NCBI RefSeq assembly: GCF_963678225.1
Contig: NZ_OY782764.1
Location: 2,733,001 to 2,797,000 of the forward strand
Direction of reading: 5' to 3'
Length of the DNA stretch: 64,000 bases
Origin: an uncultured Cohaesibacter sp.
Lineage (GTDB): Bacteria; Pseudomonadota; Alphaproteobacteria; Rhizobiales; Cohaesibacteraceae
The notes beneath the pieces are model-generated. The model searched no databases. It saw nothing but the letters and a program-made list of their open reading frames with translations, and was not told the DNA's origin. The position numbers and the translations under genes are program-made. Of this stretch, positions 15,371-63,906 are shown piece by piece (position 1 is the stretch's first letter; each line of letters opens with the position of its first letter).

Positions 15371-15940
15371 GTGGCAGATAACGGTACCAAATGGACCATG
15401 CGACCATTCCGGCGCTCTGACACCCAACAGGTCGTCAACCTTTTTAAACAGGTCAACAGATTGCTGGCACCACCTGAAATGGAAGCTGCTTTCCAAGCAT
15501 ATATCCAGCGATCCCTCGATGAAGAAATCGAACGTATTGAAGACTACTATTCCGAGCACGATGGGCTATTCCACGTCGCTGAATCAGAAGGTTGCCTGTG
15601 CGGAATGTTCGGACTTGAGAGGTCTGGCTCCGACGCCATGGAGCTTCGTCGCATGTATGTTGCGCCTCAAGTGCGAGGACTGGGGCTTGGTCGTTCGCTC
15701 TTGGCTAGAGCCGAGATGCTGACTATTGAGGCTGGCCGAACGCGACTTGTACTCAGCACGTCAGAAATCCAAAAGGCTGCGCTGGCACTGTATCGCTCGT
15801 CTGGCTACATTGTATCGGCCGAGAAAACGGCACAAACAGGATCCTTGAAGACGGTAGGGGGCGGACTCCGGCGATTTTACTTCGAGAAGGACCTGACTGT
15901 TTCGTCCCAACACCTTCAGAGCAATTCCAACGCCCCATAG
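15371..15940 (+). CDS. GNAT-family N-acetyltransferase
   Basis: A 189-residue GCN5-related acetyltransferase. The acetyl-CoA binding motif RRMYVAPQVRGLGLGRSLLARAEMLTIEAG is intact, followed by the beta-strand/helix TRLVLSTSEIQKAALALYRSSGYI. The acceptor substrate is unknown. It starts with GTG at 15371, with GGAAAGGA about 8 bases upstream. The last 15 or so residues (SSQHLQSNSNAP) lie beyond the fold. It lies 69 bp after the dehalogenase and could share its transcript. Confidence 0.88.
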   Translation: MADNGTKWTMRPFRRSDTQQVVNLFKQVNRLLAPPEMEAAFQAYIQRSLDEEIERIEDYYSEHDGLFHVAESEGCLCGMFGLERSGSDAMELRRMYVAPQVRGLGLGRSLLARAEMLTIEAGRTRLVLSTSEIQKAALALYRSSGYIVSAEKTAQTGSLKTVGGGLRRFYFEKDLTVSSQHLQSNSNAP

Positions 15941-16136
15941 AGCCCGCCCCTATGATAGCTCGTATTGATGGTTGGAGTAGTCATGAAACCGGGAGGGAAG
16001 GTCATCGTCGGAATGCGCGCCAGATAGCTGGCTTTGTGACCCAAGGCGCCATCACATTTTTTGCATGGTTTAATGACGACTAAGCCGATGGGATTTGTTA
16101 CAATAAGGCAGATCACTCTGAGCAGAATGGACCAAT

Positions 16137-16580
16137 ATGATATCGCAAAAAGCACAATATGCCTTCAGGGCGCTGCTCGCGCTGGCGCGGCTGGATGATG
16201 ACGAAGTCTCCATGATCTCCGATATTGCCTCCTCTCAGAATATCCCGAAAAAGTTTCTCGAGCAGATCCTGCTGGACCTTAAACGCCACGGCATCGTTCA
16301 GAGCCGCCGCGGGAAAATGGGGGGCTATCTGCTTCTCAAAGAAGCGAATGAGATCACCTTTGGCGAGGTCCTTCGTATCATAGATGGACCGATCGCACCG
16401 CTGCCATGCCTGAGCAAGATGGCCTATCGAAAATGCGATGGCTGCGATGATGAAGAGGCCTGTGAAATCCGCAAAGTTTTTGCCAAAGTAGCTGATGCTA
16501 CGCGCAATATTCTCGACAATACGACAATTTCAGACGCAATTTCTGACCCTGAGAAGGCTGATATCCCATTGATCTCATGA
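16137..16580 (+). CDS. Rrf2-family transcriptional regulator (sulfur-type)
   Basis: A 147-residue Rrf2 protein with HTH (ISQKAQYAFRALLALARL ... IPKKFLEQILLDLKRHGIVQSRRGKMGGYLL). The cysteines in CLSKMAYRKCDGCDDEEACEIR could bind an Fe-S cluster or respond to thiol state. Many cysteine-bearing Rrf2 proteins control Fe-S, nitric oxide or sulfur-assimilation genes. It sits directly upstream of the sulfate transporter operon in the same orientation, which makes control of sulfate uptake the most economical guess. Confidence 0.9.
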   Translation: MISQKAQYAFRALLALARLDDDEVSMISDIASSQNIPKKFLEQILLDLKRHGIVQSRRGKMGGYLLLKEANEITFGEVLRIIDGPIAPLPCLSKMAYRKCDGCDDEEACEIRKVFAKVADATRNILDNTTISDAISDPEKADIPLIS

Positions 16581-16668
16581 GATAAATTGGTGTGCTTCAT
16601 AAATTTCTTGACTAACACTACTAAATCGATAGAGATTAAGGATATTGATCATGTTCAGGGAGGTTTCC

Positions 16669-17685
16669 ATGACTCGATATCGAAGTATCACCGCGGCTGC
16701 CGTTATGGCGATCGCCATAGGGTTTGCTGCACCGGTAGCCGCAGCGGATTTCACACTCCTCAATGTGAGCTATGATCCGACGAGGGAATTGTACAAGGAG
16801 TATAATCAGCTGTTCATCGACAGCTGGAATGCAAAAACCGGAGACAAGGTGACCATTCGCATGTCCCATGGGGGCTCCGGAAAGCAGGCCCGCTCCGTTA
16901 TCGACGGGCTAGAAGCTGATGTCGTCACCCTGGCTCTGGAAGCCGACATCAATGCGATTGCCGAGAAGACCGGCAAAATTTCCGCGGCGTGGCGTGAACG
17001 GCTTCCCAACAACAGCGCGCCCTACACCTCAACCATCGTCTTTCTCGTGCGCAAGGGTAATCCCAAGGGCATTTCAGATTGGGCCGATCTGGTGCGTGAT
17101 GGCGTTGAGGTGATTACGCCCAATCCGAAAACATCTGGCGGTGCCCGCTGGAACTTCCTTGCCGCATGGGCCTGGGCACAAAAGGCTTACAAGGGCGATG
17201 AGCCCAGCGTACGGCAGTATGTCAGCGATCTGTTCCGGCATGTGCCGATACTGGATACCGGCGCACGCGGCGCTACGACCACCTTTGTTCGCCGCGGTAT
17301 TGGCGATGTGCTGCTGGCTTGGGAGAATGAAGCGTTTCTGGCTCTTGATGAGCTGGGCGAGGGCGCATTTGAAATTGTCGTTCCGTCCGTTTCCATCAAG
17401 GCCGAGCCTCCGGTTGCTTTGGTCGATGGCAATGTCGAACATAAGGGCACGACCGAGATTGCCACCGCCTATCTTAAGGGCCTTTACAGCGAGGATGGCC
17501 AGCGTCTAGCTGCCCGCCACTATTATCGCCCTTATCAGCCAGAATTGGCTGACCCGCAGGACATGAAGCGCTTCCCTGATCTCACACTGGTCACCGTTGA
17601 TGATTTCGGTGGCTGGAAGAAAGCGCAGCCGACCTTCTTTGCCGATGGTGGCATTTTCGATCAGATCTACAAGCCGGAGCGCTAA
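16669..17685 (+). CDS. sbp: Sulfate ABC transporter, periplasmic substrate-binding protein
   Basis: Periplasmic sulfate/thiosulfate receptor of 338 residues. A signal peptide (about 1-25, ending APVAAA) precedes [20 protein letters not shown], followed by the sulfate-pocket stretch [29 protein letters not shown], both diagnostic of Sbp/CysP. Sbp and CysP cannot be separated on sequence inspection alone. The ATG at 16669 has AGGGAGG upstream, while an earlier ATG at 16645 lacks one. A possible -35 (TTGACT, 16608) lies in the gap after the Rrf2 gene. It is the first gene of the sbp-cysTWA operon. Confidence 0.95.
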
Positions 17686-17686
17686 C

Positions 17687-18544
17687 ATGACTGCTACTGT
17701 GCAAAGCAGTAGATGGCACTTCCGCGAGCCGGGTGTGATCCCGGGCTTCGGGCTGACATTTGGCTTCGCGGTCTGCTATCTCTCACTGGTCATTCTGATC
17801 CCGCTGTCGGGACTGGTCTGGCACTCGTCCAACCTTGGTTGGGACGCCTTCTGGGCTTTGGCGAGCGATCCGCGCACGATCGCTGCTCTTAAAATCAGCT
17901 TCGGTAGTGCCGTGCTGGCTGCCCTGATCAATACGGTCTTCGGCCTTGTCGTGGCTTGGGTCCTCGTGCGCTACCGCTTTCCGGGACGACGTATTGTCGA
18001 TGCTGTGGTTGATCTGCCCTTTGCGCTGCCCACAGCTGTCGCCGGGATTGCCCTTGCAACGCTCTATGCACCCAACGGCATGATCGGCGCATGGCTGGCA
18101 GATTTCGGCTTCAAGGTTGCCTTCACCCCCGCAGGGATCGTGGTCGCGCTCGTCTTCATTGGTCTGCCTTTCATCGTCCGCACCGTCCAGCCTGTGCTGG
18201 AAGAGGTCGACCGGGAGATAGAAGAAGCGGCTGCGACCTTGGGCGCATCGCGCCTTGATATTGTGAGGCGCGTACTCCTGCCCGGATTGCTCCCGGCGAT
18301 CCTGACCGGTTTTGCCATGGCCATGGCACGCGGCATTGGCGAATATGGCTCGGTCATCTTCATTGCAGGCAACATACCCTATGTCTCTGAAATCGCGCCT
18401 CTTCTGATCGTCATTCGGCTGGAGGAGTTCAACTATGCCGCAGCAACCGCTGTCGGCGTGGTGATGCTATCCATTTCATTCCTCATGCTTTTGATCATCA
18501 ATCTGATCCAGGCATGGAGCAGGGGGAGGTTCGGCCATGGCTGA
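17687..18544 (+). CDS. cysT: Sulfate ABC transporter permease CysT (CysU)
   Basis: Inner-membrane permease of 285 residues with about six helices and the EAA loop ([30 protein letters not shown]) that docks on CysA. The conserved ends [27 protein letters not shown] are typical of CysT. The ATG lies one base after the sbp stop. The open frame extends upstream into sbp, but that part encodes a shadow of sbp. The 3' end overlaps cysW by 8 bases. Confidence 0.95.
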
Positions 18545-51321: not shown

Positions 51322-52662
51322 TCAGTGGCGTACGGCCTTGACCGCATCCGCAGTTACCGCACCGGCATCATTGCCCCAACCCTTGCGCAGGAAGGTGGCG
51401 AGGGCTGCAACATCCTCATCGCTCAAGCGCTCGGCAAAGCCGGGCATCTTCAGCTTTTCAGGACGCTTTGCCGTTGAGGGCATTTCCGCACCATAGAGGA
51501 TGGTCTCGATAAGGCCCGTGGTCTGATCAGAGGTGACGAGCGAGTTATCACTCATCGCCGGAAAGACTTCTGCCGCCCCTTTGCCGTTGGTCATGTGACA
51601 GGCCGCGCAATTGTCCATATAGAGCATTTCGCCTTCATCAAGGCCGATGCCCTTGGCCAACTTGAGCGAAGTAGCATCCGTGGCTTTGTCGATCTGACGC
51701 GGAGCGCTGAGGCTCTGGTCAGGTACAGACGGAGCCGGCTGCCGCTCGCCTTTGACGATGTGATGCAGATAAGCAACCATCGCCTCGGCGTCCTCGTCGG
51801 TCATATATTGCAGGGAATCCTTGACTGCCAGCGCCATTTCACCGGCAACCGCCGTGTGAGCATTGCGTCCGGTGGTCAGGTAGGCTTTGAGGTCGGCGGC
51901 AGACCATCTCTGTGCAGCAGAGCTGGCGCTGCGCAGGTCTGGCGCTTCCCAGCCACCAATCACGCCGCCGGAAAGGAAGCCGTCATCCTGAGCCGTCTTG
52001 CCACCCTCGGCCATGATCAGGTTGCGTGGGCTGTGACAGGAGGCACAATGGCCCGGACCCTGCACCAGATAGGCCCCGCGAGCCAACTGCTCATCAGAGG
52101 CGATGGCGTCTGTTTCAGGCTTGAAGCCGGAGGAGCCAAGGGCTACCCAGTTCCACAGGCGAATGCCCCAACGCTGGTTGAACGGGAAGGCAAGCGCCGT
52201 CTCTTCCACCTTGTTGTTCACCGCAGGCACCTCATTCATGAAGTAATCATACATGGCGCGAATGTCGGTTTCGCTGAGGTTGCGATAATTCTCGTACGGC
52301 ATGGCCGGATAGAGATGCTCGCCACCCGGAGCAATGCCGTCCACCAAGGCGGCGCGGAAGTCGTCCAGTGACCAGTTGCCGATGCCTGTCTCTTTATCAG
52401 GCGTTATGTTGGTTGCCCAGATGGTGCCCATCGGGCTTTCGATGGCGCGGCCACCGGCAAAGGGCTCGCCACCCTCAGCGGTGTGACAGGCGGCACAGTC
52501 GGCCATGCGCATGGCATATTCGCCCTGTCCGGGCGCAGGCTTCCAGTCCGCGGAAAGCGGTTCGCTGGGTTTGGTCAGTTGCGGCGGCACGAAGATAATG
52601 GCCAGAAGCACGATCACGCCAAGGCAAACCAGCCCCGCCAGAATACGAAGGTAAGTTTTCAT
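51322..52662 (-). CDS. Triheme cytochrome c subunit of an FAD-dependent dehydrogenase
   Basis: A 446-residue cytochrome c with an N-terminal membrane anchor (ILAGLVCLGVIVLLAIIFV) and three CxxCH heme sites: Cys56-His60 (CAACH), Cys206-His210 (CASCH) and Cys352-His356 (CAACH). This matches the membrane subunit of gluconate, 2-ketogluconate, sorbitol and alcohol dehydrogenases that passes electrons from the flavoprotein to ubiquinone. It is the last gene of the operon, 11 bp after the GMC subunit. Confidence 0.9.
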   Translation of the reverse strand: MKTYLRILAGLVCLGVIVLLAIIFVPPQLTKPSEPLSADWKPAPGQGEYAMRMADCAACHTAEGGEPFAGGRAIESPMGTIWATNITPDKETGIGNWSLDDFRAALVDGIAPGGEHLYPAMPYENYRNLSETDIRAMYDYFMNEVPAVNNKVEETALAFPFNQRWGIRLWNWVALGSSGFKPETDAIASDEQLARGAYLVQGPGHCASCHSPRNLIMAEGGKTAQDDGFLSGGVIGGWEAPDLRSASSAAQRWSAADLKAYLTTGRNAHTAVAGEMALAVKDSLQYMTDEDAEAMVAYLHHIVKGERQPAPSVPDQSLSAPRQIDKATDATSLKLAKGIGLDEGEMLYMDNCAACHMTNGKGAAEVFPAMSDNSLVTSDQTTGLIETILYGAEMPSTAKRPEKLKMPGFAERLSDEDVAALATFLRKGWGNDAGAVTADAVKAVRH

Positions 52663-52673
52663 CTTTCAGTCCC

Positions 52674-54446
52674 TCACATCAACGGGCGTGGATTTTTGAG
52701 ATAATCCTTGCGGATGGCATCCGCAGCCCAATAGGCCAGCGCGCCGAGCGGACCGGTCGGATTATATTGCGTGTTCTGCGGATAGGCGGATGCGCCCATG
52801 ACGAACACATTGTGGCAATCCCAGCTCTGCAGATAGCGGTTGATGACAGAGGTTTTCGGATCAGTCCCCATGATTGCGCCGCCCACATTATGGGTCGACT
52901 GATAAGGCCGCACGTCATATTGCGAACCATCATGCTTGTAGCCCGAGGCCATCTTGTCCGGATTCATGGACTTTGCGACTTCCTCGATCTTGCCCTTCAT
53001 GAACTGGGTCATCTTGATGTCATTGTCCTTCCAGTTGAAGGTCATGCGCATCAAGGGGCGACCGTGGCGGTCGGTATAGGTCGGGTCTAGATCAAGATAG
53101 CAATCCCGGTAGGACATGTTGGAGCCATGAGAACCGATGGACATCTTGCTGGCGTACCACTGGCCAGCCGCTTCCTTCCAGCCTTGTCCCCATGAGGGCG
53201 TGCCCGGAGGCGTGGACATTTGCTGAATTGGGCGTCCACCCGTATGCCCGCCGGTGATATAGCTGCCGCCAATAAAACCTTCCTTAGCGAAATCGATCTG
53301 GCTGATCGAGAAGTCGTCAATCGACATGCCGACCGAGCCGGTGCCGATGAACGGGTTGAAATTCTTGTCCTTGAAGAACAGGGCTGTACCACCGGTCATC
53401 TGGTAGGAATAGTTCCGCCCTACAACGCCTTCGCCTGTTGCCGGATCATAAGGCTGACCAATGCCGGAAAGCAGCAACAGATGCACATTGTTGAGGGAGT
53501 AAGTGCATACAAGCACCAGATCTGCAGGCTGGAACACCTCGTCACCGGTCTTCTCGTCGAAATAGGTGACGCCCGTGGCGGTTTTGCCATCGGCTGCCTT
53601 TTCGATCTTGAGCACCTCGGCATGGGTCTTGTAGCTGAAATTCGGCTTTTGCTTCAGTGCATCCAGAATACAGGTCTGTGGCGATGCCTTGGAATAGTTA
53701 AGGCACCCGAAACGTTCGCAGAAACCGCAATAATTGCAAGGGCCAAGCTGCATGCCATATTCGTTGGTGTAGGCGCGGCTGGCGTTGGCTGCCGGACGCG
53801 GGAAGGGATGATAACCGAACTTGCGTGCCGCATCGGCGAAGAGTTCCGCATCATAGGTATTATCGAGCGGTGGATTGGGATAATCCCGCGCGCGAGGCGC
53901 TTCAAACGGGTTACCGCCTTCCTGAATCTCGCCATTGATGTTGCCGGCCTTGCCCGAGATGCCCATCATATATTCGAGGCGATCATAATGGGGTTCCAGC
54001 TCTTCCTGCGTGACACCCCAGTCTTGTATCTGCATGCCTTCAGGAATGATGTCGGCGCCGAAGGTTTCCTCGACATAGGATTTCAGCCGCAACTCGACAT
54101 CCTGCGTGCGCCATGTGTGGCCATTCCAGTGAATGCCAGCTCCGCCAACTCCATCGCCAGGCAGGAAAGAGCCCAGATGCCGATAGGGAAGAGCCGTCTG
54201 CTCTGCATTATGGCGCACGGTCAATGTCATCTTGGCAGGCTTCTGCATGAAGCCGTAGCGAATGCCATATTTCAATTCATCAATCACGCCCGGATATTGA
54301 AAATCCGGCACAGTGTTGCGATCTTCGCCACGCTCAAGGGCGAGGATTTCAAGCCCTTCCTGTGCCAGTTCCATGCCGAGAATGGAGCCGGTCCAGCCCA
54401 GGCCGAGGATCACGACATCTTTTTTAGGATCTGTTCTTGTAGCCAT
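52674..54446 (-). CDS. GMC-family FAD-dependent dehydrogenase subunit (gluconate 2-dehydrogenase type)
   Basis: A 590-residue GMC flavoprotein: FAD motif VVILGLGWTGSILGMELAQEGLEILALERG at the N-terminus, and the GMC stretch LPGDGVGGAGIHWNGHTWRTQDVELR. A cysteine-rich CNYCGFCERFGC follows, which in related dehydrogenases binds a 3Fe-4S cluster. The C-terminal catalytic region is HNVGGAIMGTDPKTSVINRYLQSWDCHNVFVMGASAYP. It has no signal of its own and is likely exported with the Tat-bearing small subunit. The sugar or sugar-acid substrate is undetermined. Confidence 0.92.
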   Translation of the reverse strand: MATRTDPKKDVVILGLGWTGSILGMELAQEGLEILALERGEDRNTVPDFQYPGVIDELKYGIRYGFMQKPAKMTLTVRHNAEQTALPYRHLGSFLPGDGVGGAGIHWNGHTWRTQDVELRLKSYVEETFGADIIPEGMQIQDWGVTQEELEPHYDRLEYMMGISGKAGNINGEIQEGGNPFEAPRARDYPNPPLDNTYDAELFADAARKFGYHPFPRPAANASRAYTNEYGMQLGPCNYCGFCERFGCLNYSKASPQTCILDALKQKPNFSYKTHAEVLKIEKAADGKTATGVTYFDEKTGDEVFQPADLVLVCTYSLNNVHLLLLSGIGQPYDPATGEGVVGRNYSYQMTGGTALFFKDKNFNPFIGTGSVGMSIDDFSISQIDFAKEGFIGGSYITGGHTGGRPIQQMSTPPGTPSWGQGWKEAAGQWYASKMSIGSHGSNMSYRDCYLDLDPTYTDRHGRPLMRMTFNWKDNDIKMTQFMKGKIEEVAKSMNPDKMASGYKHDGSQYDVRPYQSTHNVGGAIMGTDPKTSVINRYLQSWDCHNVFVMGASAYPQNTQYNPTGPLGALAYWAADAIRKDYLKNPRPLM

Positions 54447-54449
54447 GGA

Positions 54450-55151
54450 TCACGCCCTTTCGCCGGAAATGGATAGTGCAGGCAGCGGATAGGTCTGATT
54501 ATGTCTGGTAACCCATTCAGTGTAGGCTGCGCGCGCACCCGGGAAGCCGATATAGGCCCAAGCCTTCAGCTGGTAATTCCCGCCATATTTCGGATCGGCA
54601 AAATAGCCTTCTTTGGTGTTTTGAAGCAGGAACGAGAAGAAATCGCGAAGCTCGGGAGCAAGGGCGACGTCACCCTTTTGCAGCGATGTCAGAGCCTTGT
54701 CCTTTGTGGCCGCCTCGAGATTTTCAAAGACATCGCCATGTGTGGTCTGGCACCATTCCTGAAAGGCTGGAATGGCCTGCCGGTAGATCTGGGCCGGTGT
54801 CAGTGGAGATTGGAACCCCAAAAGCGGATCCGCATCGGGCTGATGCGGTCCTGCCATATACCAGTCGGAGGCGTCACCAAAGCTACCTGCCATCTGCAGG
54901 TCGATGAAGACCGGAACGCGGGTTTCCAGCGCTCCCGGTCCATCGCCTTCAGCCGGGATCAACCGGTCGCAGGCAGCCATGACGAAACGCCATTCGTCGG
55001 CGTTGAAATAAACAGGCTCATACTCTTCCAAAGGCGGTAGTTCGCCCTGCGCATAGGAAAGAGACGGGTTCATCAGGGTTGCATAAGCGGCGCTGGCCGC
55101 AGAGCCCATGAGAAACCCTCGACGCGAAACGCGCCCTGGAATATCGGTCAC
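54450..55151 (-). CDS. Gluconate 2-dehydrogenase subunit 3 family protein (Tat-exported small subunit)
   Basis: A 233-residue protein with the twin-arginine signal SRRGFLMGSAASAAYA, followed by the subunit-3 pattern YFNADEWRFVMAACDRLIPAEGDGPGALETRVPVFIDLQM. The small subunit carries the Tat signal that takes the folded GMC partner across the membrane. It begins with GTG at 55151, with AAGGAG 6 bases upstream, and is first in the operon, 3 bp before the GMC gene. Confidence 0.9.
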   Translation of the reverse strand: MTDIPGRVSRRGFLMGSAASAAYATLMNPSLSYAQGELPPLEEYEPVYFNADEWRFVMAACDRLIPAEGDGPGALETRVPVFIDLQMAGSFGDASDWYMAGPHQPDADPLLGFQSPLTPAQIYRQAIPAFQEWCQTTHGDVFENLEAATKDKALTSLQKGDVALAPELRDFFSFLLQNTKEGYFADPKYGGNYQLKAWAYIGFPGARAAYTEWVTRHNQTYPLPALSISGERA

Positions 55152-55520: not shown

Positions 55521-55559
55521 GGCAAAATAAAAGCCGCCAGACCGGAAGGCCTGACAGCT
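55521..55559 (-). terminator. Terminator of the glutamine-synthetase-like gene
   Basis: On the minus strand a 12 bp stem containing G-T pairs (AGCTGTCAGGCC / GGTCTGGCGGCT, loop TTCC) is followed by TTTATTTT, 28 bp after the stop codon. Confidence 0.75.
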
Positions 55560-55586
55560 TGAATTGGTTTAACAAGGTGCGCAGTA

Positions 55587-56900
55587 TCAGTAGACTGCAG
55601 CATAGGCTGCGCAGCGCTCTGCCGTATCCTTGCCATCCAGATAGGCAAGCTCGCCTTTCTTGTGGGCCAGATAGACATCGACAAACTGATCAGGAAACCA
55701 ACTGCGGACGGTCTCGTTAGCGTCAAGGCGCGCGAGAGCTGCCTCCAATGTTTCGGGCAGGCGCACATAGCCGCGCTCGGAAAGGGCGCTTTCGCTGAGA
55801 AGGGAAAGGTCTTCCTCCGTCACCTTCGGCATGGGCAACTGGTCCTTGATGCCTTGGGTGCCTGCGAAAAGAATGGCTGCAAGGGCAAGATGCGGCGAGG
55901 CGGAACAATCGGCTGCACGGAACTCGAAATTATATTGTCGCGCGATGCTCTCCGGATCGGTCGATGTGACCGGGCAGATACGCACTGAGGCTTCACGATC
56001 CCGGAAGCCGAGATTGTTGTAGGCCGCGCTCCAGCGATGAGGCGTCAAGCGCAAATAGGAGATATCCGAAGGGGCCGTGAAAGCCACGATGCTGTCGAGA
56101 TATTTGAGAACGCCCGCGATAAAGGAACCGGTTATCGGCGACATGCCAGCAACACCATTGGCATCATAGGTGGCCGGTTCGCCTGCCTCAGTCACAAAGC
56201 TCATATGAATATGCACGCCGTTGCCAACGGAGGCCGGGTCTTGAATCGGCGTGAAAGTCACCGCCTCGCCACAGCGTGCTGCCGTCATGCGGGTCACTTC
56301 GCGCAGGATGAGGGATTCATCGGCGGCACGATGATTTTGGCTCGGCCCGATGGTCACTTCATACTGGTCTGGCCCATATTCCTTCATGAAGGTATCGGGA
56401 TGCAAACCGGCCTGTTCAAGTGCAGCCATCAAGGTTTCGCCAAACTGGCGGCGGCGGGTGAAGCCATTCAGGCCATAGGGTTCGCCCTGTGGAGCTGCGC
56501 CGGCAAGAAACTGGAATTCATGCTCGAATGCAGCGATCAGTTCAACGCCGCCAGCCTCTTTCAGGCCAGCCAGTGCGGATTTGAGAATGGAGCGGGTGCA
56601 GCAGGCCCAGGGCTGGCCATCGAGATCGGTAATATCCCCCAGCATGAAGCGTTCAATGGGGCCGCCATCTTCAAAATCGAGCTCAACATTGGCATCCGCA
56701 TCGGGAATGAGCAACAGGTCGCCAAGCGAGCCGAATGGACTGTCGGCGATCGCGTCAAAACAGGTAATCTGCACGTTGGTCGGCGTCCAGCCGACACCGC
56801 GCTTCAGGCGCTTTTGCGTTTCCTTCAAGGGAAAGGCCTTGCCGCGGGATTTACCCGCAATGTCTGAGGTCAGGGCGAAGACGAGAGGATTGGTGATCAC
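55587..56900 (-). CDS. Glutamine synthetase-family ligase (type III/gamma-glutamyl-amine ligase-like)
   Basis: A 437-residue GS-fold enzyme, shorter than GlnA (about 470). It has the catalytic-domain patterns AFEHEFQFL (metal-binding Glu), NGVHIHMSF (ATP/ammonia site) and EFRAADCSASPHLALAAILFAGTQG. Such catabolic GS-like proteins join glutamate to an amine, as PuuA does. The frame extends to 56966, but the GTG at 56900 has GGAGA 6 bases upstream and lies 2 bp after the RpiR stop, giving tight coupling. Together with the divergent ABC transporter it points to uptake and glutamylation of an amine or amino compound. Confidence 0.88.
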   Translation of the reverse strand: MITNPLVFALTSDIAGKSRGKAFPLKETQKRLKRGVGWTPTNVQITCFDAIADSPFGSLGDLLLIPDADANVELDFEDGGPIERFMLGDITDLDGQPWACCTRSILKSALAGLKEAGGVELIAAFEHEFQFLAGAAPQGEPYGLNGFTRRRQFGETLMAALEQAGLHPDTFMKEYGPDQYEVTIGPSQNHRAADESLILREVTRMTAARCGEAVTFTPIQDPASVGNGVHIHMSFVTEAGEPATYDANGVAGMSPITGSFIAGVLKYLDSIVAFTAPSDISYLRLTPHRWSAAYNNLGFRDREASVRICPVTSTDPESIARQYNFEFRAADCSASPHLALAAILFAGTQGIKDQLPMPKVTEEDLSLLSESALSERGYVRLPETLEAALARLDANETVRSWFPDQFVDVYLAHKKGELAYLDGKDTAERCAAYAAVY

Positions 56901-56902
56901 TT

Positions 56903-57742
56903 TTATTCTCCAAAGTCTAATCGCATCGAATCCCAATGTTCGATGCGTTGCTTGGTTGTTTCCCAATGGGAGTCGGCGATGTTGGTCAGGGTCGCTTCAA
57001 TGACGGCAAAGGCACCCGAATAACTATCCCATAGAGTATCGGTATTGATGGGAATGGCCAAAATCTCGGACGCATTGCGCGAGACAGGCGACATCCAGCG
57101 GTCGGTAATGAGAACCACATGCGCCTTGCGCTCTTCGGCCGCCTTACGCGCCAAATGCGTCAGATTGGACTGGTAACGCCTGAAATCGGCGATCACGAGA
57201 ATGTCCTTGGCCCGCATGCGCAGTAGATATTCCGGCCACATTTCCGGATCTGAGGGTAGGTGATAGACCTTCTGGCGGATCTGGCGCAAATGGCGAGACA
57301 TATATTGCATGAGCGTATCACTCATCCGGCCGCCGATAAAATAGAGGGAGCGTTTCGTATCGGACAACATCTGGCAGATCCGATCAAACTGAGCCTCGGA
57401 AATAGACTGTGTGGATTCTTCCAGAATGCCGGACACACGATCAAGAAAGCTGGCCATATAGGCGCCATGCATGGGCTTGCTCATGGATTTGCGCTCGACC
57501 GGAGAGGTCTGGATCTGCTTGAGCTCGTCGATCAAATGACGTTGAAAGTCCTGAAAACTCTGGAACCCGATTTTGGCAACAAAGCGCGAAATGCTCGGTG
57601 CCGATGTCTGCGCCCGCTCTGCCAGCGCCTGAATAGGTTCCAGGCCAGCAAAGGGATAGTCCAGCAAAAGCGTTGTGCTCAGGCGTCTTTCCGTAGCGGT
57701 AAAGTCGGCGGAATGGGCCTCGATCTGATCGCGAACTGTCAT
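56903..57742 (-). CDS. RpiR-family transcriptional regulator
   Basis: A 279-residue protein with N-terminal HTH_6 (LFAG-type region LEPIQALAERAQTSAPSISRFVAKIGFQSFQDFQRHLIDEL) and SIS domain (about 120-260, YFIGGRMSDTLMQYMSRHLR, DILVIADFRRYQSNLTHLARKAAEERKAHVVLITD). The phosphosugar motif is modified (RMSDT, FRRYQ), so it may sense something other than a sugar phosphate. It is co-transcribed with the GS-like gene and divergent from the ABC transporter operon. Confidence 0.92.
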   Translation of the reverse strand: MTVRDQIEAHSADFTATERRLSTTLLLDYPFAGLEPIQALAERAQTSAPSISRFVAKIGFQSFQDFQRHLIDELKQIQTSPVERKSMSKPMHGAYMASFLDRVSGILEESTQSISEAQFDRICQMLSDTKRSLYFIGGRMSDTLMQYMSRHLRQIRQKVYHLPSDPEMWPEYLLRMRAKDILVIADFRRYQSNLTHLARKAAEERKAHVVLITDRWMSPVSRNASEILAIPINTDTLWDSYSGAFAVIEATLTNIADSHWETTKQRIEHWDSMRLDFGE

Positions 57743-57759
57743 GTCGTTCTCCCTTCAGA

Positions 57760-57834
57760 ACCATAATGCGAAATGAAATTAATTTGTCAAATACATTTTT
57801 TTTATTGACATTGAAATTCTGTTTTCATTATGGT
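57760..57834. promoter_or_regulatory. Divergent promoter/operator region of the RpiR-GS and ABC operons
   Basis: ACCATAATG (57760-57768) and CATTATGGT (57826-57834) are exact inverted copies. A sigma-70-like promoter for the + strand, TTGACA (57805-57810) with a 17 bp spacer to TTATGG (57828-57833), overlaps the right arm, so binding of the RpiR protein there would block transcription of the transporter operon. Confidence 0.6.
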
Positions 57835-57857
57835 CACTAGCAATTAGTTGGAGAATT

Positions 57858-59672
57858 ATGATGCTTGTCACCTCTGGTCGTCAGCTGTTTTATTCAGTTT
57901 TTGCCATACTCGCCCTCGCTTTGATCGCATCGGCAATTGCTTGGTATATTGGCCCGGCAAGCCAGCGCATTCTCGTTGTATTCTTTGTTTCGCTCATCGC
58001 GGTGGTTGCTCAGGGCGTCTATTGCGGTAACAGCGGTATCATGTCCTTCGGGCATCTTTCCTTCATGGCGATCGGGGCCTATGCCTCTTCGCTTCTGACG
58101 GTTCCCGCCATGATGAAAGCGGCAACCCTGCCAAAGCTGCCTCATTGGCTGGCCTCCACGGAGACGAGCCTCTTGCCCGCCATTCTGGCCGCGCTCGTCG
58201 TGGTGGCGCTGGTCGCAATCATCACCGGCGTGGTGGTCGGCAAGCTTCAGGGGGAGGCGGCAACCATCGCAACGCTTGGATTGTTGATCATCGTGCATGG
58301 CATCCTGATCGGCTGGCGGGATGTGACGCGCGGCTCTGGCTCCTTCTTCGGCGTGCCCCGCGAGACATCGATGTGGGTGGCCATGATCGGATGTGTCATC
58401 GCACTCATCATCGCGCGGCTCTACAGGGATTCCATATCGGGTCTCAAGCTGCGCGCCAGTCGTGAAAATGCCATTGCGGCGGCAGCGGTTGGTGTCAATA
58501 TCAAGCGTGAGCGGCTGGTCTCCTGGGTTATCAGCGCTGTGCTGATGGGCTTGTCCGGTGCCTTGATGGCGCATTTCCTCGGTGCCTTCAGTCCCAAGAA
58601 TTTCTATTTCGTTGATACCTTCCAGTATCTTGCCATGCTTATCGTTGGCGGCATGACCACCGTAACCGGCGCCATTTCCGGCGCGGTGGTGATCACCATT
58701 GTCACGGAAATCCTGCGCCATCTGGAAAGCGGCTTCTCGCTCGGCTTCATTGAGGTGCCTCAGGTCTTTGGCACGACACAAATCGGCATCGCGCTGCTCA
58801 TTCTGTTTGCCATGTTCCGCAAGGCCGATGGCCTGACCGGCCTCAAGGAATGGGAAGAGCGCTTCATCAAACCCAAACGTAAGATTCTCTCAGGCGCATC
58901 TCTGCAAGCAGCAGAGCCCGATGGCATCCTGACAGCGAAGGGCATGACTATGCGTTTTGGCGGGCTCGTTGCGGTCAACAATGTCGATTTCAAATTGATG
59001 CCCGGCGAAATCGTGGGCCTGATCGGGCCAAACGGTTCTGGCAAGACGACACTGCTCAACATGCTCTCCGGTGTTCTGAAACCAAGCGAAGGCACCTTCA
59101 AGATCGCGGATACGCTGCTCGATGGTGTGCCTTCGCACAAAGTCGCCGAACATGGCATCGCGCGGACCTTCCAGAATATCCGTCTGTTCAACCATTTGAG
59201 CGTTTTCCAGAATGTGCTGGTTGCGGCGCTATCCACTCGCGGGGGCAAGGATGCGGAAAGCCGTGCCCAGACAGCGCTGGAACGCATGGGCATGAGCAAA
59301 TTTGCCGAAATGGATGCGGGAACCCTGTCTTACGGTGATCAGCGTCGGGTGGAGATTGCCCGCGCGCTTGCCTGCCAGCCAAGCCTCTTGTTCCTCGATG
59401 AGCCAGCCGCAGGCATGAACCGCGAAGAGACCGATGCGCTGATGGAAATGCTGCGCGGTCTCACCAAGGATCTGGGTATCGGCATTCTGCTTGTCGACCA
59501 CGATCTGAAGCTGATCAACCAATTGTGCGACCGCATCGCCGTGCTCAATGAAGGCACACTGATTGCGGCGGGCACACCTGCTGAAATCCGGAAAAATCCC
59601 GCTGTCGTCGAGGCATATCTCGGTGCCAGCACGGATCAGAATGATGACCCTGAAGGCAATCAGGGCACATGA
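57858..59672 (+). CDS. Branched-chain-type ABC transporter, LivM permease-LivG ATPase fusion
   Basis: A 604-residue two-domain protein. Residues about 1-330 form a LivM-like permease (many helices; CGNSGIMSFGHLSFMAIGAYASSLLT; LIVGGMTTVTGAISGAVVI). Residues about 355-600 form a LivG-like ATPase with Walker [15 protein letters not shown], the LIV-type insert AEHGIARTFQNIRLFNHLSVFQNVLV, signature LSYGDQRRVEIARALA and Walker B LLFLDEPAAGMN. A natural fusion, as the frame is continuous with no stop between domains. First gene of the operon, with GGAGA before the ATG. Confidence 0.94.
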   Translation: MMLVTSGRQLFYSVFAILALALIASAIAWYIGPASQRILVVFFVSLIAVVAQGVYCGNSGIMSFGHLSFMAIGAYASSLLTVPAMMKAATLPKLPHWLASTETSLLPAILAALVVVALVAIITGVVVGKLQGEAATIATLGLLIIVHGILIGWRDVTRGSGSFFGVPRETSMWVAMIGCVIALIIARLYRDSISGLKLRASRENAIAAAAVGVNIKRERLVSWVISAVLMGLSGALMAHFLGAFSPKNFYFVDTFQYLAMLIVGGMTTVTGAISGAVVITIVTEILRHLESGFSLGFIEVPQVFGTTQIGIALLILFAMFRKADGLTGLKEWEERFIKPKRKILSGASLQAAEPDGILTAKGMTMRFGGLVAVNNVDFKLMPGEIVGLIGPNGSGKTTLLNMLSGVLKPSEGTFKIADTLLDGVPSHKVAEHGIARTFQNIRLFNHLSVFQNVLVAALSTRGGKDAESRAQTALERMGMSKFAEMDAGTLSYGDQRRVEIARALACQPSLLFLDEPAAGMNREETDALMEMLRGLTKDLGIGILLVDHDLKLINQLCDRIAVLNEGTLIAAGTPAEIRKNPAVVEAYLGASTDQNDDPEGNQGT

Positions 59673-59719
59673 AGACCTTCCAAGATAAACACTCACCACA
59701 CCAATTCCAGAGGATACCT

Positions 59720-60877
59720 ATGAAAAAGGCACTCTTTCTTACGAGCCTTCTTGCTCTGTCCGCTCTCAGCCAGCCGGTTCTGGCTGAAGATCTGAAAATC
59801 GGCCTCGCAACAGCCCAGACCGGTGGTCTGGCTCCCTATGATGCGCCGGTTATTGAAGGCGTTCACATCGCCGTCGATGAAATCAACGCTGCAGGCGGCA
59901 TTGATGGCAAATACAAGATCGACCTGATCGACAAGGATGTGCGCTCTGATGCCGCGCAGACCTCTATCGCAACTCAGGAACTGGTCGACCAGCAGGTGTC
60001 CGTTCTGGTGTTGCCATGCGATGCCGATCCGGCGCTGGCTGCCATTTCCATTGTCGCTGCTGCTGAAATTCCGGCTATCTCCACCTGCGCCTCTTCGCCA
60101 ACCCTTCCGCTGGTCGGTGGTGACTATATGTTCGCCAACTTCCCCGGCGACAACGTGCAGGCAACCGTTTCCGCTGAATGGGCATGGGGCGAAGGCTACA
60201 AGTCGGCCTACATCATCTATAGCCCGGATGCGCAATACACCACGCTGCCTCTCTACTTCAAGGAAGTGTTTGGCAAGCTGGGTGGTGACATTCTGGGCGA
60301 AGACACCTATTCCATTGGCCAGCAGGATTTCTCTGCGATTGCAACCCGCATCGCCGCGCTTGACCCTCAGCCGGATGTCATCATGACCGCCGCCTTCGAG
60401 CCAGACTTCCCGTCTCTTCTGAAGGCCCTGCGTGCGGCTGGCGTGAAAAGCCAGATGATCGGCTCTGATGGTATCGATAGCCCGACCACCTTCTCCCTTG
60501 GGGATGTTGTTGAAGGCACTGTCTTCACCACGGCAGGCTTTGCCACCGAAGGCAGCCCGATGGAAGCATTCAACAAGAAATACAAGGAAGTTACCGGCAA
60601 AGACAGTCAGACGGTCTTCAACGCTGTTGGCTATGACCTGATCAAGGTCATCGAAGCCGCAGTCAAGGAAGCCGGGTCCACCGATCCGAAGGCCTTGCGC
60701 GATGCGATTGCCAATCTTGAAAATGTTCAGGGTGCAACCAGCATGATCACATATAAGGGTACCAACGGCATGCCTGTGCGTCAGGTGTCTCTGGTGCGTG
60801 TCACCGGTGGCGACCGCGAATTGATCGGCCAGCCGAGCCCGACTGCTGATCTGGTTCCTGCACCTCGTATGCAGTAA
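59720..60877 (+). CDS. ABC transporter substrate-binding protein (LivK-type, Peripla_BP_6)
   Basis: A 385-residue periplasmic receptor with signal peptide MKKALFLTSLLALSALSQPVLA. The LivJ/K fold begins DLKIGLATAQTGGLAPYDAPVIEGVHIAVDEINAAGGIDGKYKIDL. Relatives bind amino acids, amides, urea or aromatic acids; the ligand here is unknown. The ATG at 59720 has AGAGGA upstream, 47 bp after the fused permease/ATPase gene. Confidence 0.93.
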   Translation: MKKALFLTSLLALSALSQPVLAEDLKIGLATAQTGGLAPYDAPVIEGVHIAVDEINAAGGIDGKYKIDLIDKDVRSDAAQTSIATQELVDQQVSVLVLPCDADPALAAISIVAAAEIPAISTCASSPTLPLVGGDYMFANFPGDNVQATVSAEWAWGEGYKSAYIIYSPDAQYTTLPLYFKEVFGKLGGDILGEDTYSIGQQDFSAIATRIAALDPQPDVIMTAAFEPDFPSLLKALRAAGVKSQMIGSDGIDSPTTFSLGDVVEGTVFTTAGFATEGSPMEAFNKKYKEVTGKDSQTVFNAVGYDLIKVIEAAVKEAGSTDPKALRDAIANLENVQGATSMITYKGTNGMPVRQVSLVRVTGGDRELIGQPSPTADLVPAPRMQ

Positions 60878-60896
60878 GTCAAGGAGCGTTGATCCA

Positions 60897-61610
60897 ATGG
60901 AACCGCTGTTGAAAGTATCCTCGCTGCATGTGCGGTATGGCGCTGTACAAGCGGTTCGCGGGGTCGACTTTGAAATCCGGGAAGGCGAGATTGTCGCCTT
61001 TCTGGGCGCCAATGGTGCGGGCAAGTCTTCCACGCTCAATGCCATTGCCGGGTTGGTGGAGGCCCATGCGGGTACCATCGAGTTTGCCGGACGGGACATT
61101 ACCGATCTGGCACCGGAAACACTGACCCCGTTGGGGCTGGCGCTTTCGCCCGAAGGTCGCCGCGTATTTCCTGCGCTGTCTGTCGCTGAAAATCTGTTGA
61201 TGGGTGCCTATAGCGTCAAGGACAAGACAAAGGTCAAAGATGCATGGGAGCGGGTCTATTCGCTCTTTCCCATTCTGCATGACCGCAAGGACCAGTTGGC
61301 CGGAACCCTTTCGGGTGGTCAGCAGCAAATGCTCGCGGTCGGGCGCGCTCTGATGAGTGGTCCGCGCCTGTTGTTGCTTGATGAGCCATCCCTCGGCCTT
61401 GCGCCGCTGATCGTCGAACAGGTGTTTGAACTGATCACCATCCTCAGAGACCAGAAGGTGACCATTGCGCTTGTCGAGCAGAATGTCGCCAAGAGCCTCG
61501 AGATCGCCGACCGTGGCTATATTCTGGCTGGCGGTCAGGTTGTCGGCGCGGGGGCTGCTTCGGATCTGATGTCCGAGGGCGGCCTTGAAGATACATTCCT
61601 TGGAGCATGA
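60897..61610 (+). CDS. ABC transporter ATP-binding protein (LivF type)
   Basis: A 237-residue ATPase: LLKVSSLHVRYGAVQAVRGVDFEIREGEIVAFLGANGAGKSSTLNAIAGLV, signature LSGGQQQMLAVGRALMSGPRLLLLDEPSLGLAPLIVEQVF, and the LivF C-terminal VTIALVEQNVAKSLEIADRGYIL. It partners the LivG half of the fused protein. AAGGAG precedes the ATG. Confidence 0.95.
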   Translation: MEPLLKVSSLHVRYGAVQAVRGVDFEIREGEIVAFLGANGAGKSSTLNAIAGLVEAHAGTIEFAGRDITDLAPETLTPLGLALSPEGRRVFPALSVAENLLMGAYSVKDKTKVKDAWERVYSLFPILHDRKDQLAGTLSGGQQQMLAVGRALMSGPRLLLLDEPSLGLAPLIVEQVFELITILRDQKVTIALVEQNVAKSLEIADRGYILAGGQVVGAGAASDLMSEGGLEDTFLGA

Positions 61611-61612
61611 CA

Positions 61613-62506
61613 ATGGAACTTTTGCTGCAACAAACTGTCAATGCCATCGCGCTGGGGGGCACTTATGCCCTGCTTGCACTGGGGCTGGCCGTTGTCTTCT
61701 CCATCATGGGGCTGATCAACTTTGCCCATGGCGAATTGATGACCATTGCGGGTTATGTGCTGATGTATTGCGGGTTGGCGGGGGTTCCCTTTGCTATTGC
61801 CGCAGCGCTGGCCATTGGTGCGGCCATGCTGGCCGCCGTGTTGATGGAAATGATCGCCTTCAGGCCTGTGCGCAACGCCTCGGGGGAGACCATGCTGGTC
61901 ACCTCTTTCGCGGTGTCCATGGTACTGCAAGTGCTGTTCCAGAACTTTATCGCCGCGCGGTCTCAGCCAGTGCTGCTGCCGCAGCTTCTCTCCGATAGCA
62001 TCAGCCTTTTCGGACTGGTCATCGGGGTGAACAAGATTGCCGCGATTGTGGCGACCATCGTCATGCTGGCTTTTCTCGACTGGTTCATGCGCAAGCAGAA
62101 ACACGGCATCGCCATGCGCGCTGCTGCGGAAGATTTTGCCGTCGCCCGGCTGATGGGCATTCGCGCCAACACGGTGATTTCTGCCGCCTTTGCGCTCTCT
62201 GGCCTGCTGGCCGGGGTGGCCGCTGTGCTCTGGGTTTCCCAGCGGGCGTCGGTTGATCCTCTGATGGGCTTTGCACCTGTGCTGAAGGCCTTCATCGCTG
62301 CCATTCTCGGCGGATTGGGCTCTCTGCGGGGTGCTGTAGCCGGTGGTTTCGTGCTCGGCTTCATCGAGATCTATCTGGCGGCCTTCCTGCCGTCTGACAT
62401 GCAGGAATTCCGAGAGCCGATCGGGCTGGGCATCGTCGTCTTCATCATGCTATTCCGTCCGAACGGACTAATCCCTGCCGCCAGCCTGAAGGCTGAGAAA
62501 GTGTAA
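61613..62506 (+). CDS. ABC transporter permease (LivH type)
   Basis: A 297-residue LivH permease: LLQQTVNAIALGGTYALLALGLAVVFSIMGLINFAHGELM at the N-terminus, the LGGLGSLRGAVAGGFVLGFIEIYLAAF loop, and ending FRPNGLIP. The ATG at 61613 has GGAG seven bases upstream. An overlapping ATG at 61607 is too close to that site. Confidence 0.94.
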   Translation: MELLLQQTVNAIALGGTYALLALGLAVVFSIMGLINFAHGELMTIAGYVLMYCGLAGVPFAIAAALAIGAAMLAAVLMEMIAFRPVRNASGETMLVTSFAVSMVLQVLFQNFIAARSQPVLLPQLLSDSISLFGLVIGVNKIAAIVATIVMLAFLDWFMRKQKHGIAMRAAAEDFAVARLMGIRANTVISAAFALSGLLAGVAAVLWVSQRASVDPLMGFAPVLKAFIAAILGGLGSLRGAVAGGFVLGFIEIYLAAFLPSDMQEFREPIGLGIVVFIMLFRPNGLIPAASLKAEKV

Positions 62507-62521
62507 TCAAGGTTCCCTTTC

Positions 62522-63274
62522 ATGACGCAATTGTTGCAAGCTGGCGATCCTTCGCCGTCCCTCATTCTCAATCCCGAAGGGACATGTCCCATCCTGTTAG
62601 CCTGCGAGCATGCCGGGCAGGGGATTCCCAAAGCTCTGGGCGATCTTGGCCTCAGCCGCGAGCAGCTGGACATGCATATTGGCTGGGACATCGGAGCCGC
62701 GGCGCTCACGCGTCTGCTCTCCGAGCGCCTCAATGCCACCGCCATTCTGCAGCATTACAGCCGTCTGGTCATCGACTGCAATCGCCCGCCCGAGGCACCG
62801 GATTCCGTGCCCGAAGTCAGCGATAAGGTGACCATCCCGGCCAATGTGGATGCGGATAACAAGCAGGCCCGCGTGGACGAGATTTTCACGCCCTATCAGG
62901 GGCAAGTGTCGCGCCTGCTTGATAGTGGCCGCTACAAGGCTGCGCTTTCCATTCACAGCTTTACACCCGTCATGCAGGGCGTGCCGCGCCCATGGGATAT
63001 CGGGTTTTTGTTTGGCACCCATGAAGACACATCACGCAGGCTTGCCGCCTTCCTTGAGAAGGCCTACCCTTGGATGACCATCGGTTTCAACGAGCCCTAT
63101 CAGGTGAGCGGCCTGTCTGATTGGTTCGTCCCCCGCCATGGGGAAGCAAGAGGCCTGCCGCATGCTCTTATCGAGGTGCGCAACGATCATATTTCAGACA
63201 AGGACGGTCAGGAAAAATGGGCCGATATTCTTGCTGCATCCTTTAGGCATTTTCTTGAAGAGGTTCCTGCATGA
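62522..63274 (+). CDS. N-formylglutamate amidohydrolase-family protein
   Basis: A 250-residue HutG-like (PF05013) zinc amidohydrolase with LLACEHAGQGIPKALGDLGL, HIGWDIGAAALTRLL, VIDCNRPPEAPDSVPEVSD and SIHSFTPVMQG, the usual metal and substrate motifs. Classic members hydrolyse N-formylglutamate in histidine degradation, but no hut gene is nearby. In this operon it more likely cleaves an N-acyl or N-formyl derivative of the imported compound. It lies 15 bp after livH and overlaps the next gene by 4 bases. Confidence 0.88.
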   Translation: MTQLLQAGDPSPSLILNPEGTCPILLACEHAGQGIPKALGDLGLSREQLDMHIGWDIGAAALTRLLSERLNATAILQHYSRLVIDCNRPPEAPDSVPEVSDKVTIPANVDADNKQARVDEIFTPYQGQVSRLLDSGRYKAALSIHSFTPVMQGVPRPWDIGFLFGTHEDTSRRLAAFLEKAYPWMTIGFNEPYQVSGLSDWFVPRHGEARGLPHALIEVRNDHISDKDGQEKWADILAASFRHFLEEVPA

Positions 63275-63906
63275 CTTTGACCCGTGACATACCCCTTGAT
63301 CCTTCCGTCTCTGCGCTGTTGTTTGTCGACGTGCAGAATTTCAGTTGCAGCCGCAAGGGCGGCGAGTTTGCCCATCTCAGCGAGCAGGAGCTGGAGGAGA
63401 AATGCGGCTGGTTCTTTGAAAAGGCCGAAACCGAAATCGTGCCCAACATGCAGGCTCTTCAGGCCAAGTGCCGCGAAAAGGGCATCGAGGTGATGTATAC
63501 CACCATCGAAAGCCTGACCTTTGACGGCCGGGATCGCTCGCTTGATTACAAAATTACCGGATTCAACGTGCCCAAGGGCTCTTGGGATGGCAAGGTGATC
63601 GACGAGATTGCGCCGCAGGGCGATGAAATCGTGCTGCCCAAAAGCTCGTCATCGGTCTTCGTGTCTACCCATATCGACTATATCTTGCGCAATCTGGGCG
63701 TCAAACAGCTGGTCATCTGCGGCATGCTGACAGACCAATGCGTGGAGAGCGCCATTCGTGATGCCTGCGATCTTGGCTATCTGGTGACCGAAGTGACCGA
63801 CGCCTGTCTGACGCTCACTCAAGAGCGTCATGACAATTCTCTCAAGGCGATCAAGGGCTACTGCAGACAGATCACGACAGCCCAGTTGCTTGAAGAACTG
63901 GGATAG
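63271..63906 (+). CDS. Isochorismatase-like cysteine hydrolase
   Basis: A 211-residue hydrolase with the catalytic triad positions of the family: Asp in LLFVDVQNFS near residue 20, Lys in LPKSSSSVF near residue 123, and Cys in CGMLTDQCVESAIRDACDLGY near residue 155. Relatives include nicotinamidase, N-carbamoylsarcosine amidase, ureidoacrylate and biuret hydrolases, so an amide C-N bond is the likely target. The start overlaps the amidohydrolase stop (ATGA). Last gene of the transporter operon, with a terminator 28 bp later. Confidence 0.9.
   Translation: MTLTRDIPLDPSVSALLFVDVQNFSCSRKGGEFAHLSEQELEEKCGWFFEKAETEIVPNMQALQAKCREKGIEVMYTTIESLTFDGRDRSLDYKITGFNVPKGSWDGKVIDEIAPQGDEIVLPKSSSSVFVSTHIDYILRNLGVKQLVICGMLTDQCVESAIRDACDLGYLVTEVTDACLTLTQERHDNSLKAIKGYCRQITTAQLLEELG

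Follow-up and report, generated by a model that had tools for sequence, protein, structure and literature searches.

A conserved cassette of a LIV-type importer, a glutamine synthetase-like ligase and two amidohydrolases in an uncultured Cohaesibacter sp. and other bacteria

Organisation of the locus

A stretch of 64,000 nt from the genome of an uncultured Cohaesibacter sp. (contig NZ_OY782764.1, positions 2,733,001 to 2,797,000; hereafter "the window", the whole genome comprising 4.94 Mb on two contigs) carries at positions 55587 to 63906 two divergently transcribed units, in which genes for an RpiR-family regulator and a glutamine synthetase (GS)-like ligase are placed back to back with genes for a LIV-type ABC importer, a member of the N-formylglutamate amidohydrolase (FGase) family and a cysteine hydrolase of the isochorismatase family. 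This gene set is a conserved cassette and not a chance neighbourhood and, as judged from the protein families involved, it probably imports a nitrogen-rich compound and dismantles it by means of one glutamate-attaching and two amide-cutting enzymes.

The minus-strand unit consists of rpiR (56903..57742; HTH_6 and SIS domains) and the ligase gene (55587..56900; Gln-synt_C match), the latter being assigned to the PA5508/4HPP type of gamma-glutamyl-amine ligase. Translation of the ligase probably starts at GTG 56900 rather than at TTG 56966, because the relatives begin at the former position and because a GGAG motif and the rpiR stop codon are located just before it; given this start, the two genes are 2 nt apart. 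The plus-strand unit comprises a LIV-type permease fused to an ATPase (57858..59672; BPD_transp_2 and ABC_tran), a LIV-type (HAAT) periplasmic binding protein (59720..60877; Peripla_BP_6), a LivF-like ATPase (60897..61610; ABC_tran), a LivH-like permease (61607..62506; BPD_transp_2), the FGase-family amidohydrolase, which is not HutG (62522..63274; PF05013), and the isochorismatase-family cysteine amidohydrolase (63271..63906). The importer is thus a complete LIV/HAAT set of two permease domains, two ATPase domains and a Peripla_BP_6 receptor.

A preliminary description of the window had proposed such a divergent pair of operons with overlapping or nearly overlapping genes. Family scans recovered all eight genes at the same positions and with the same family assignments, and the distances within each unit were measured as gaps of 2 to 47 nt and overlaps of 4 nt: 47 nt from the LIV fusion to the receptor (given a receptor start at 59720), 19 nt from the receptor to the LivF-like ATPase, a 4 nt overlap of the latter with the LivH-like permease, 15 nt from this permease to the FGase, and a 4 nt overlap of FGase and cysteine hydrolase. 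Its statement that hut, put, puu and hydantoin genes do not adjoin the locus agrees with the stretches inspected by eye and by family scans of some frames, none of these genes being seen in the window from approximately 51.3 kb onwards or in approximately 10 kb beyond the locus (the remainder of the window lying outside this search).

Conservation of the cassette

The gene set, whose conservation in other alphaproteobacteria had been named as a check of the initial description, is co-conserved in the genus, in a set of 80 loci and in a phylum-wide draw. Within Cohaesibacter, the FGase (at least 50% identity) and the ligase (E 1e-100 or better) are found in the identical 9 of 18 genomes, in each of which their start-to-start distance is 6-7 kb; the proteins of the Cohaesibacter marisflavi locus (L042) are 98-100% identical to those of the window cassette. 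The 80-locus set was obtained with the cysteine hydrolase as query against one genome of each species, and represents the best 80 of 344 relatives of any kind, so that it is biased towards the window type, while some of its loci are cut by contig ends. In this set the ligase is present in 71 loci, the FGase in 75, RpiR in 64, all four core genes in 60, and all four together with LIV components in 51.

An even draw across the phylum yielded 23 of 398 genomes matching the cysteine hydrolase (E 1e-30 or better), being the Cohaesibacter genome itself, four genomes with weaker isochorismatases only (below 165 bits; no GS or FGase gene nearby) and 18 with strong matches. Within the fetched stretches of these 18, a GS-family gene was present in all (one at 281 bits), FGase in 15, RpiR in 15 and all four in 14. 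The four-gene core is widespread, with 14 of the 398 genomes besides its own holding it and with cysteine-hydrolase relatives, other isochorismatases included, encoded in 344 stretches. Plasmid-borne copies exist as well: those of Sulfitobacter sp. D7 and Maritalea myrionectae have the divergent layout of the window, while in that of Paracoccus seriniphilus the ligase gene lies apart.

A complete cassette of the window type was in addition observed on a contig labelled as Nocardioides marinus, which is an actinobacterium (L101, 576-12098); the identity of its proteins to those of the window is 52-82%. This placement may reflect horizontal transfer, or else contamination or wrong labelling of the assembly.

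The GS-like ligase

The closest solved structure to the ligase is that of PA5508 from Pseudomonas aeruginosa, also called PauA7 (4HPP; 331 bits, the next structure scoring 111). Five glutamine-synthetase-type models match the protein, each with a score short of its curated cut-off: the true-GS models TIGR00653 (178 bits, cut-off 429), TIGR03105 (144, cut-off 470), NF007006 (87, cut-off 845) and NF041605 (22, cut-off 500), and the PuuA model NF045547 (240, cut-off 650). In an alignment mapped by eye onto published residue roles (PMC5403932 and PMC6529630), and with the L162 row disregarded because it is in the wrong frame, the metal, glutamate and ATP residues of the GS fold are kept. The flap glutamate (E327 in GS) is replaced by Trp, as in PA5508 (by eye: RWSAAY in the window, HWSASY in L153), while a GlnA-like paralogue (L160) keeps it (FEAPVL). 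With GS residues kept and the flap glutamate lost, the sequence has the features expected of a gamma-glutamyl organic-amine synthetase (PauA7/GoaS).

Like PuuA of the putrescine (Puu) pathway, the ligase would be a GS-like enzyme that gamma-glutamylates an amine. A putrescine role was dropped, the PuuA score being far below its cut-off and no puuB, puuC or puuD gene being seen adjoining the window locus.

The two amidohydrolases and the receptor

With 24 bits against the HutG model TIGR02017 (cut-off 278.75), the FGase of the window is remote from HutG, and its sole solved match is the uncharacterised structure 2odf. A histidine (hut)/formylglutamate role was dropped on account of this score, and no hut gene was seen adjoining. 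The cysteine hydrolase finds its best solved match in the unstudied isochorismatase 3kl2, followed by RutB and, lower, by biuret hydrolase; it scores 79 bits against the RutB model (cut-off 378) and 62 bits against the BiuH model (cut-off 370). Its residues D20, K124 and C157 are invariant across eight sequences, and correspond to the Asp-Lys-Cys catalytic triad of isochorismatase-like amidases. Ligase, FGase and cysteine hydrolase all stay below the cut-off of every NCBIfam model.

The AlphaFold2 model of the receptor (pLDDT 86.5) is closest to solved folds of receptors for Leu and other amino acids. Comparison by eye with 4gnr and 4n0q places an Ala at the presumed equivalent of Ser79 of the Leu/Ile/Val-binding protein, with an invariant Asp (D103) directly after it; Ser, Tyr/Phe and Asp occupy the presumed equivalents of Thr102, Tyr202 and Glu226, respectively. 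Such a pocket would be compatible with an amino-acid-like ligand with an unusual carboxylate side, a prediction to which little weight is given.

Relation to the PA5506-PA5510 operon

Another class, taken to be the Gammaproteobacteria, is represented in the phylum draw by four loci (L151 to L154) that carry RpiR, cysteine hydrolase, ligase and FGase in this order, followed by an APC-type permease (in L151 and L152 seen by BLAST only); the L153 ligase matches 4HPP with 632 bits. We take this layout to be that of PA5506-PA5510 of P. aeruginosa, the comparison having been made with these loci in place of the PA5506, PA5507, PA5509 and PA5510 sequences themselves. PA5506 is QapR, and PA5506-PA5510 the qapR operon, which reportedly lowers the Pseudomonas quinolone signal; the title of one paper ties PA5507 to the concentration of that signal.

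The window shares with this operon the core of RpiR, cysteine hydrolase, GS-like ligase and FGase. It differs in having a LIV importer instead of an APC-type permease and two divergent units instead of the single-strand order RpiR, cysteine hydrolase, ligase, FGase (both features of PA5506-PA5510 being deduced from L151-L154). A tree of 40 cysteine hydrolases sets every one of the 35 cassette members apart from five other isochorismatases (support 95/86); L151-L154 join alphaproteobacterial (type C) loci of mostly identical gene order (97/97), while the 25 LIV-type rows, with the window, form a separate branch (94/99); L155 and L184 are long and perhaps misplaced. The FGase tree alone does not unite all cassette FGases against other PF05013 rows, and contains one fragment row (L045), which covers 16% of the columns and has a very long branch; 12 and 5 of 19 "other" loci are included in the FGase and cysteine-hydrolase trees, respectively. 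On this phylogeny the window cassette is a sister variant of the PA5506-type operon and not a member of it, because the window-type cysteine hydrolases branch apart within one cassette group.

As described in passages of two papers, PA5508 favours bulky amines and is the sole paralogue without induction by polyamines (PMC6478659), and glutamylates aromatic amines (PMC11335346). The operon further recurs in several expression studies: PA5506-PA5509 were raised in all but one plasmid-bearing PAO1 strain of one study (PMC6246594), PA5507 and PA5509 were altered in an nrdR mutant (PMC4409342), and a study of the Crc regulon lists PA5508 and PA5510 (PMC6235884).

Accessory genes and a possible link to ornithine

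In some relatives a gene for ornithine cyclodeaminase (OCD; likeness to 1u7h/1x7d) with a score above the model cut-off is found within or beside the cassette. The clearest arrangement is that of a Litoreibacter metagenome-assembled genome (L078), where RpiR, GS-like ligase, OCD, FGase and the LIV importer follow each other on one strand, with the cysteine hydrolase divergent; here OCD overlaps the ligase and FGase genes by 4 nt each and reaches 530 bits against the ornithine cyclodeaminase model (cut-off 350). In Ruegeria faecimaris (L085) the genes follow in this same order, but OCD is split in two, and the OCD of L151 matches the solved ornithine cyclodeaminase 1u7h with 586 bits. The 18 strongly matching phylum-draw genomes hold 12 OCD copies above cut-off, in 11 genomes, and 4 of these 12 are located within 10 kb of a cassette (G120, G179, G202 and G250), as compared to approximately 0.05 expected from simple arithmetic on 21 cassette copies and a total of approximately 96 Mb. 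Independent cases are nevertheless few, perhaps three when the Rhodobacterales pair is included, because G120 and G202 belong to one genus and G179 and G250 to another, and because L104 lies in the G250 genome. Another genome (G253) was left uncounted: end fragments of OCD are found at the ends of contigs close to both of its copies of the cassette, but similar fragments are present on two other contigs. In the Cohaesibacter genome itself an OCD-family gene is present at C2:1023760, approximately 1.8 Mb from the window locus.

Other linked genes in the 80 loci encode class III aminotransferases (14 loci), a kinase-M23-aminotransferase fusion (12), FmdA-type amidases (17) and ArgE/DapE-type M20 proteins (7), and 47 loci hold one or more of the five accessory families that were counted. 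Among 83 operon-linked accessory proteins (of 154 accessory open reading frames, those scanned after exclusion of short, very long and some other ones), the top recurring enzyme families are class III aminotransferase (14), FmdA (10) and M20 peptidase (6). The class III aminotransferases match, among others, acetylornithine-family and amino-acid-racemase models, all below cut-off; the M20 and aminotransferase links would be compatible with an ornithine node, and also with others. The window locus has no adjoining aminotransferase, while Cohaesibacter haloalkalitolerans (L043) has a class III aminotransferase gene 3' of the ligase. The FmdA-type amidases are short (for instance L071, 2340-3278, and L052, 15248-16186), several lie at the distal end of the LIV genes, and the one that was scanned scores 130 bits against the formamidase model (cut-off 500).

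In the kinase fusion, a protein of 1000 residues, the APH-type kinase is joined to an M23 peptidase domain and to the class III aminotransferase (NCBIfam PRK06148, "hypothetical protein"; L036, 3333-6362, and L101, 9024-12098, among others). A kinase together with a class III pyridoxal phosphate enzyme is a combination known from the isopropylamine pathway; an amino-alcohol role is not supported as a core feature, the fusion being linked to 12 of the 80 loci and not being located beside the window cassette.

Shared upstream element

Two promoter-like sites, both consensus matches only, face away from each other in the intergenic region: TTGACA and CATTAT spaced by 16 nt upstream of the rpiR-ligase unit (57763..57790, minus strand), and a site upstream of the importer-hydrolase unit (57805..57834, plus strand) that holds the element TTGAC(A/T)TTGAAA at 57805-57816. 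The 12-base element TTGACTTTGAAA occurs upstream of the importer, with at most two mismatches, in 20 of 22 LIV-side divergent intergenic regions (shuffled sequences: 0.6), a count that is partly circular because the pattern was derived from those regions, several of which are near-copies. In 12 FGase-first regions not used for discovery, it is found at the same stringency in 7 (shuffles: 0.29, largest 3 of 12). The window copy of TTGACTTTGAAA at 57805-57816 has one mismatch, and the only exact match to TTGACWTTGAAA in the window is at 57805. As the element holds a -35-like TTGAC, it may be a promoter, an operator or both. Coordinates of the intergenic regions were set by hand from the ends of open reading frames.

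Upstream of rpiR in L151-L154 the element was not found, the best matches having 4-5 mismatches. In L151, L152 and L154, GTAG-N6-CTAC-like palindromes and an A-rich run were seen there by eye, and these palindromes could be a candidate operator of the PA5506-type regulator. Palindromes of the intergenic regions were not used: the best occurs in 5 of 23 regions, three of them from Cohaesibacter, shuffled sequences gave up to 2, and near-copies can explain the count.

Proposed pathway and alternatives

The preliminary description had imagined a pathway of import, glutamylation and two amide hydrolyses. Supported by the protein families, the loss of the flap glutamate and the co-conservation of the genes, this is the best-supported reading of the locus, with the reservation that its single parts are not new. 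The LIV-type importer would take up an amino-acid-like compound bearing an amine plus a second, amide or ureido, group; the GS-like ligase would join the gamma-carboxyl of glutamate to the substrate amine at the expense of ATP; the cysteine hydrolase would then cleave the amide or ureido bond; and the FGase-family hydrolase would strip off the glutamyl group, so that glutamate is regained and the product is freed. In some relatives this product may be ornithine, or a compound one step away from it, and would pass to OCD (yielding proline) or to a class III aminotransferase; in the window genome, enzymes of these types, such as the OCD-family protein encoded at C2:1023760, would act from elsewhere. 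RpiR would govern both units from the shared intergenic region. The order of the steps, the gamma-glutamyl intermediates and the RpiR operator are what we infer from the gene set; a carbamoyl- or acyl-ornithine such as citrulline is a candidate substrate among several. Taken as a whole, an inducible catabolic cassette for import, gamma-glutamylation and two hydrolyses under RpiR control, with an ornithine-related product in some relatives, is a proposition for which the chances appear evenly balanced.

Several observations weigh against it. OCD is near only 4 of the 80 loci (L078, L085, L104 and L113), is neither within nor beside the window locus, and is lacking in any copy above cut-off from 7 of the 18 phylum-draw genomes, while 33 of the 80 loci hold none of the five accessory families. 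No ligase above threshold is near the hydrolase in 9 of the 80 loci, so that the enzymes can be apart. The 83 operon-linked proteins include three zinc-type alcohol dehydrogenases and two short-chain dehydrogenases, the frequency of FmdA is left unexplained, and the FGase could be a deformylase instead. The preference of PA5508 for bulky aromatic amines and its lack of induction by polyamines mean that PA5508 provides no pointer to ornithine. Finally, TTGACWTTGAAA has four matches with at most one mismatch in the whole window, as compared to 0.61 expected.

The alternative that survives best, rated as rather unlikely, is a route of the ethanolamine or putrescine type, in which the ligase would glutamylate a simple amine, distant dehydrogenases would oxidise it and the FGase would free the resulting amino acid, the cysteine hydrolase having made the amine beforehand from an imported amide. 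It has a precedent, itself a proposal: for the ethanolamine pathway of Streptomyces coelicolor (GlnA4/SCO1610-1615) and Chromohalobacter salexigens, a GS-like ligase is paired with a PF05013 protein (SCO1615-type) proposed to cleave gamma-glutamyl-glycine, in passages of PMC6529630 and PMC9397018, so that a ligase and an FGase as glutamyl on/off pair are foreshadowed there. That pathway has two dehydrogenases in between, and no cysteine hydrolase is listed for it in those passages, whereas the window has a cysteine hydrolase and no adjoining pair of iron alcohol and aldehyde dehydrogenases. Urea binders among LIV-type receptors, the class III aminotransferases and kinase-aminotransferase fusions (14 and 12 of the 80 loci) and the zinc-type alcohol dehydrogenases mentioned above would fit such a route. 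Neither aldehyde dehydrogenase (PF00171) nor iron alcohol dehydrogenase (PF00465) appears in the 25 largest of the 41 families to which the 83 operon-linked proteins belong, and since the last of these 25 families have one member each, at most one of each could be hidden; moreover, the cysteine hydrolase accompanies the cassette as regularly as the ligase does, albeit in loci that were collected by means of the hydrolase itself. Because the constant partner is a cysteine hydrolase rather than dehydrogenases, the core chemistry would consist of one ligation and two C-N hydrolyses without redox steps.

Detoxification of aromatic amines or quinolone-type signals, as may hold for PA5506-PA5509 (qapR), in which the set would remove or mask such compounds without feeding on them, is improbable. 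It would accord with the amine preference of PA5508 described in PMC6478659 and PMC11335346, with the paper title tying PA5507 to the quinolone signal and with the core gene set being common to loci of another class, but the window-type cysteine hydrolases branch apart from the PA5506-type ones, a LIV importer within the operon speaks for nutrient use, PA5508 and PA5510 appear in the study of the catabolite regulator Crc (PMC6235884), and OCD beside the PA5506-type cassette in L151 and L152 suggests catabolism. A deformylation/ureido route without gamma-glutamyl intermediates (the FGase removing an N-formyl and the cysteine hydrolase a carbamoyl group, the ligase scavenging the freed amine) is suggested by the FGase family name, the formamidase-like FmdA in 17 of 80 loci and RutB and biuret hydrolase as best-known relatives of the cysteine hydrolase, and is similarly doubtful given the low HutG and formamidase scores and a ligase found almost as regularly as the FGase (in 71 and in 75 of the 80 loci, respectively).

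Returning to import, glutamylation and two hydrolyses, a more specific form would be a redox-free, "glutamyl-protected" ornithine route, in which an N-substituted (carbamoyl- or acyl-) ornithine is glutamylated, its side-chain amide cut and the product freed by the FGase before entering OCD or transamination, this chemistry being common to alphaproteobacteria and the Pseudomonas-type operon, with the transporters swapped. Such a scheme is speculative and, in this detailed form, would be somewhat surprising; if true, it would also explain the role of the Pseudomonas-type operon. Should the ornithine link itself hold, it would provide the first testable pathway for an operon that recurs in several Pseudomonas expression studies, and the ligand of the receptor could be found through a simple binding screen.

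With respect to the locus having been called undescribed-looking, a search of openly licensed PubMed Central papers yielded no description of this gene set together with a LIV importer, while the PA5508 ligase, the PA5506-PA5509-like core layout and the GS-like/FGase logic of ethanolamine use precede it. Accordingly, there are precedents for the type of ligase, for the logic of pairing ligase and FGase and for the four-gene core. What is new is the LIV variant as a conserved cassette, its position as sister to the PA5506-type operon, the common upstream element and the OCD link.

Neighbouring genes and further observations

PxpA-, PxpB- and PxpC-like 5-oxoprolinase genes, with PxpA on the opposite strand, are located at 15458-18186 of a fetched stretch of the same genome (L004; window position equals L004 position plus 54000), approximately 5.5-8.2 kb past the window end. 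5-Oxoproline can arise from gamma-glutamyl amines. No neighbour cluster common to at least four loci was recognised as Pxp in the part of the clusters that was scanned.

A FAD (flavin adenine dinucleotide) enzyme closest to the N-methyltryptophan oxidase model, below its cut-off, is near the cassette in L156 (5549-6715), L179, L183, L112, L035 and L051, and is encoded directly 5' of the fused LIV gene in the first three.

A terminator-like stem-loop 3' of the ligase gene (55531..55560, minus strand; 13 pairs, of which 7 are G-C, with a T-rich tail) is a consensus match only. Beyond it, minus-strand genes at 52674-55151 and 51322-52662 encode a GMC oxidoreductase and a gluconate 2-dehydrogenase subunit-3-like protein, both assigned by family, along with a third protein in which three CxxCH motifs were seen by eye; together these look like a three-subunit membrane dehydrogenase.

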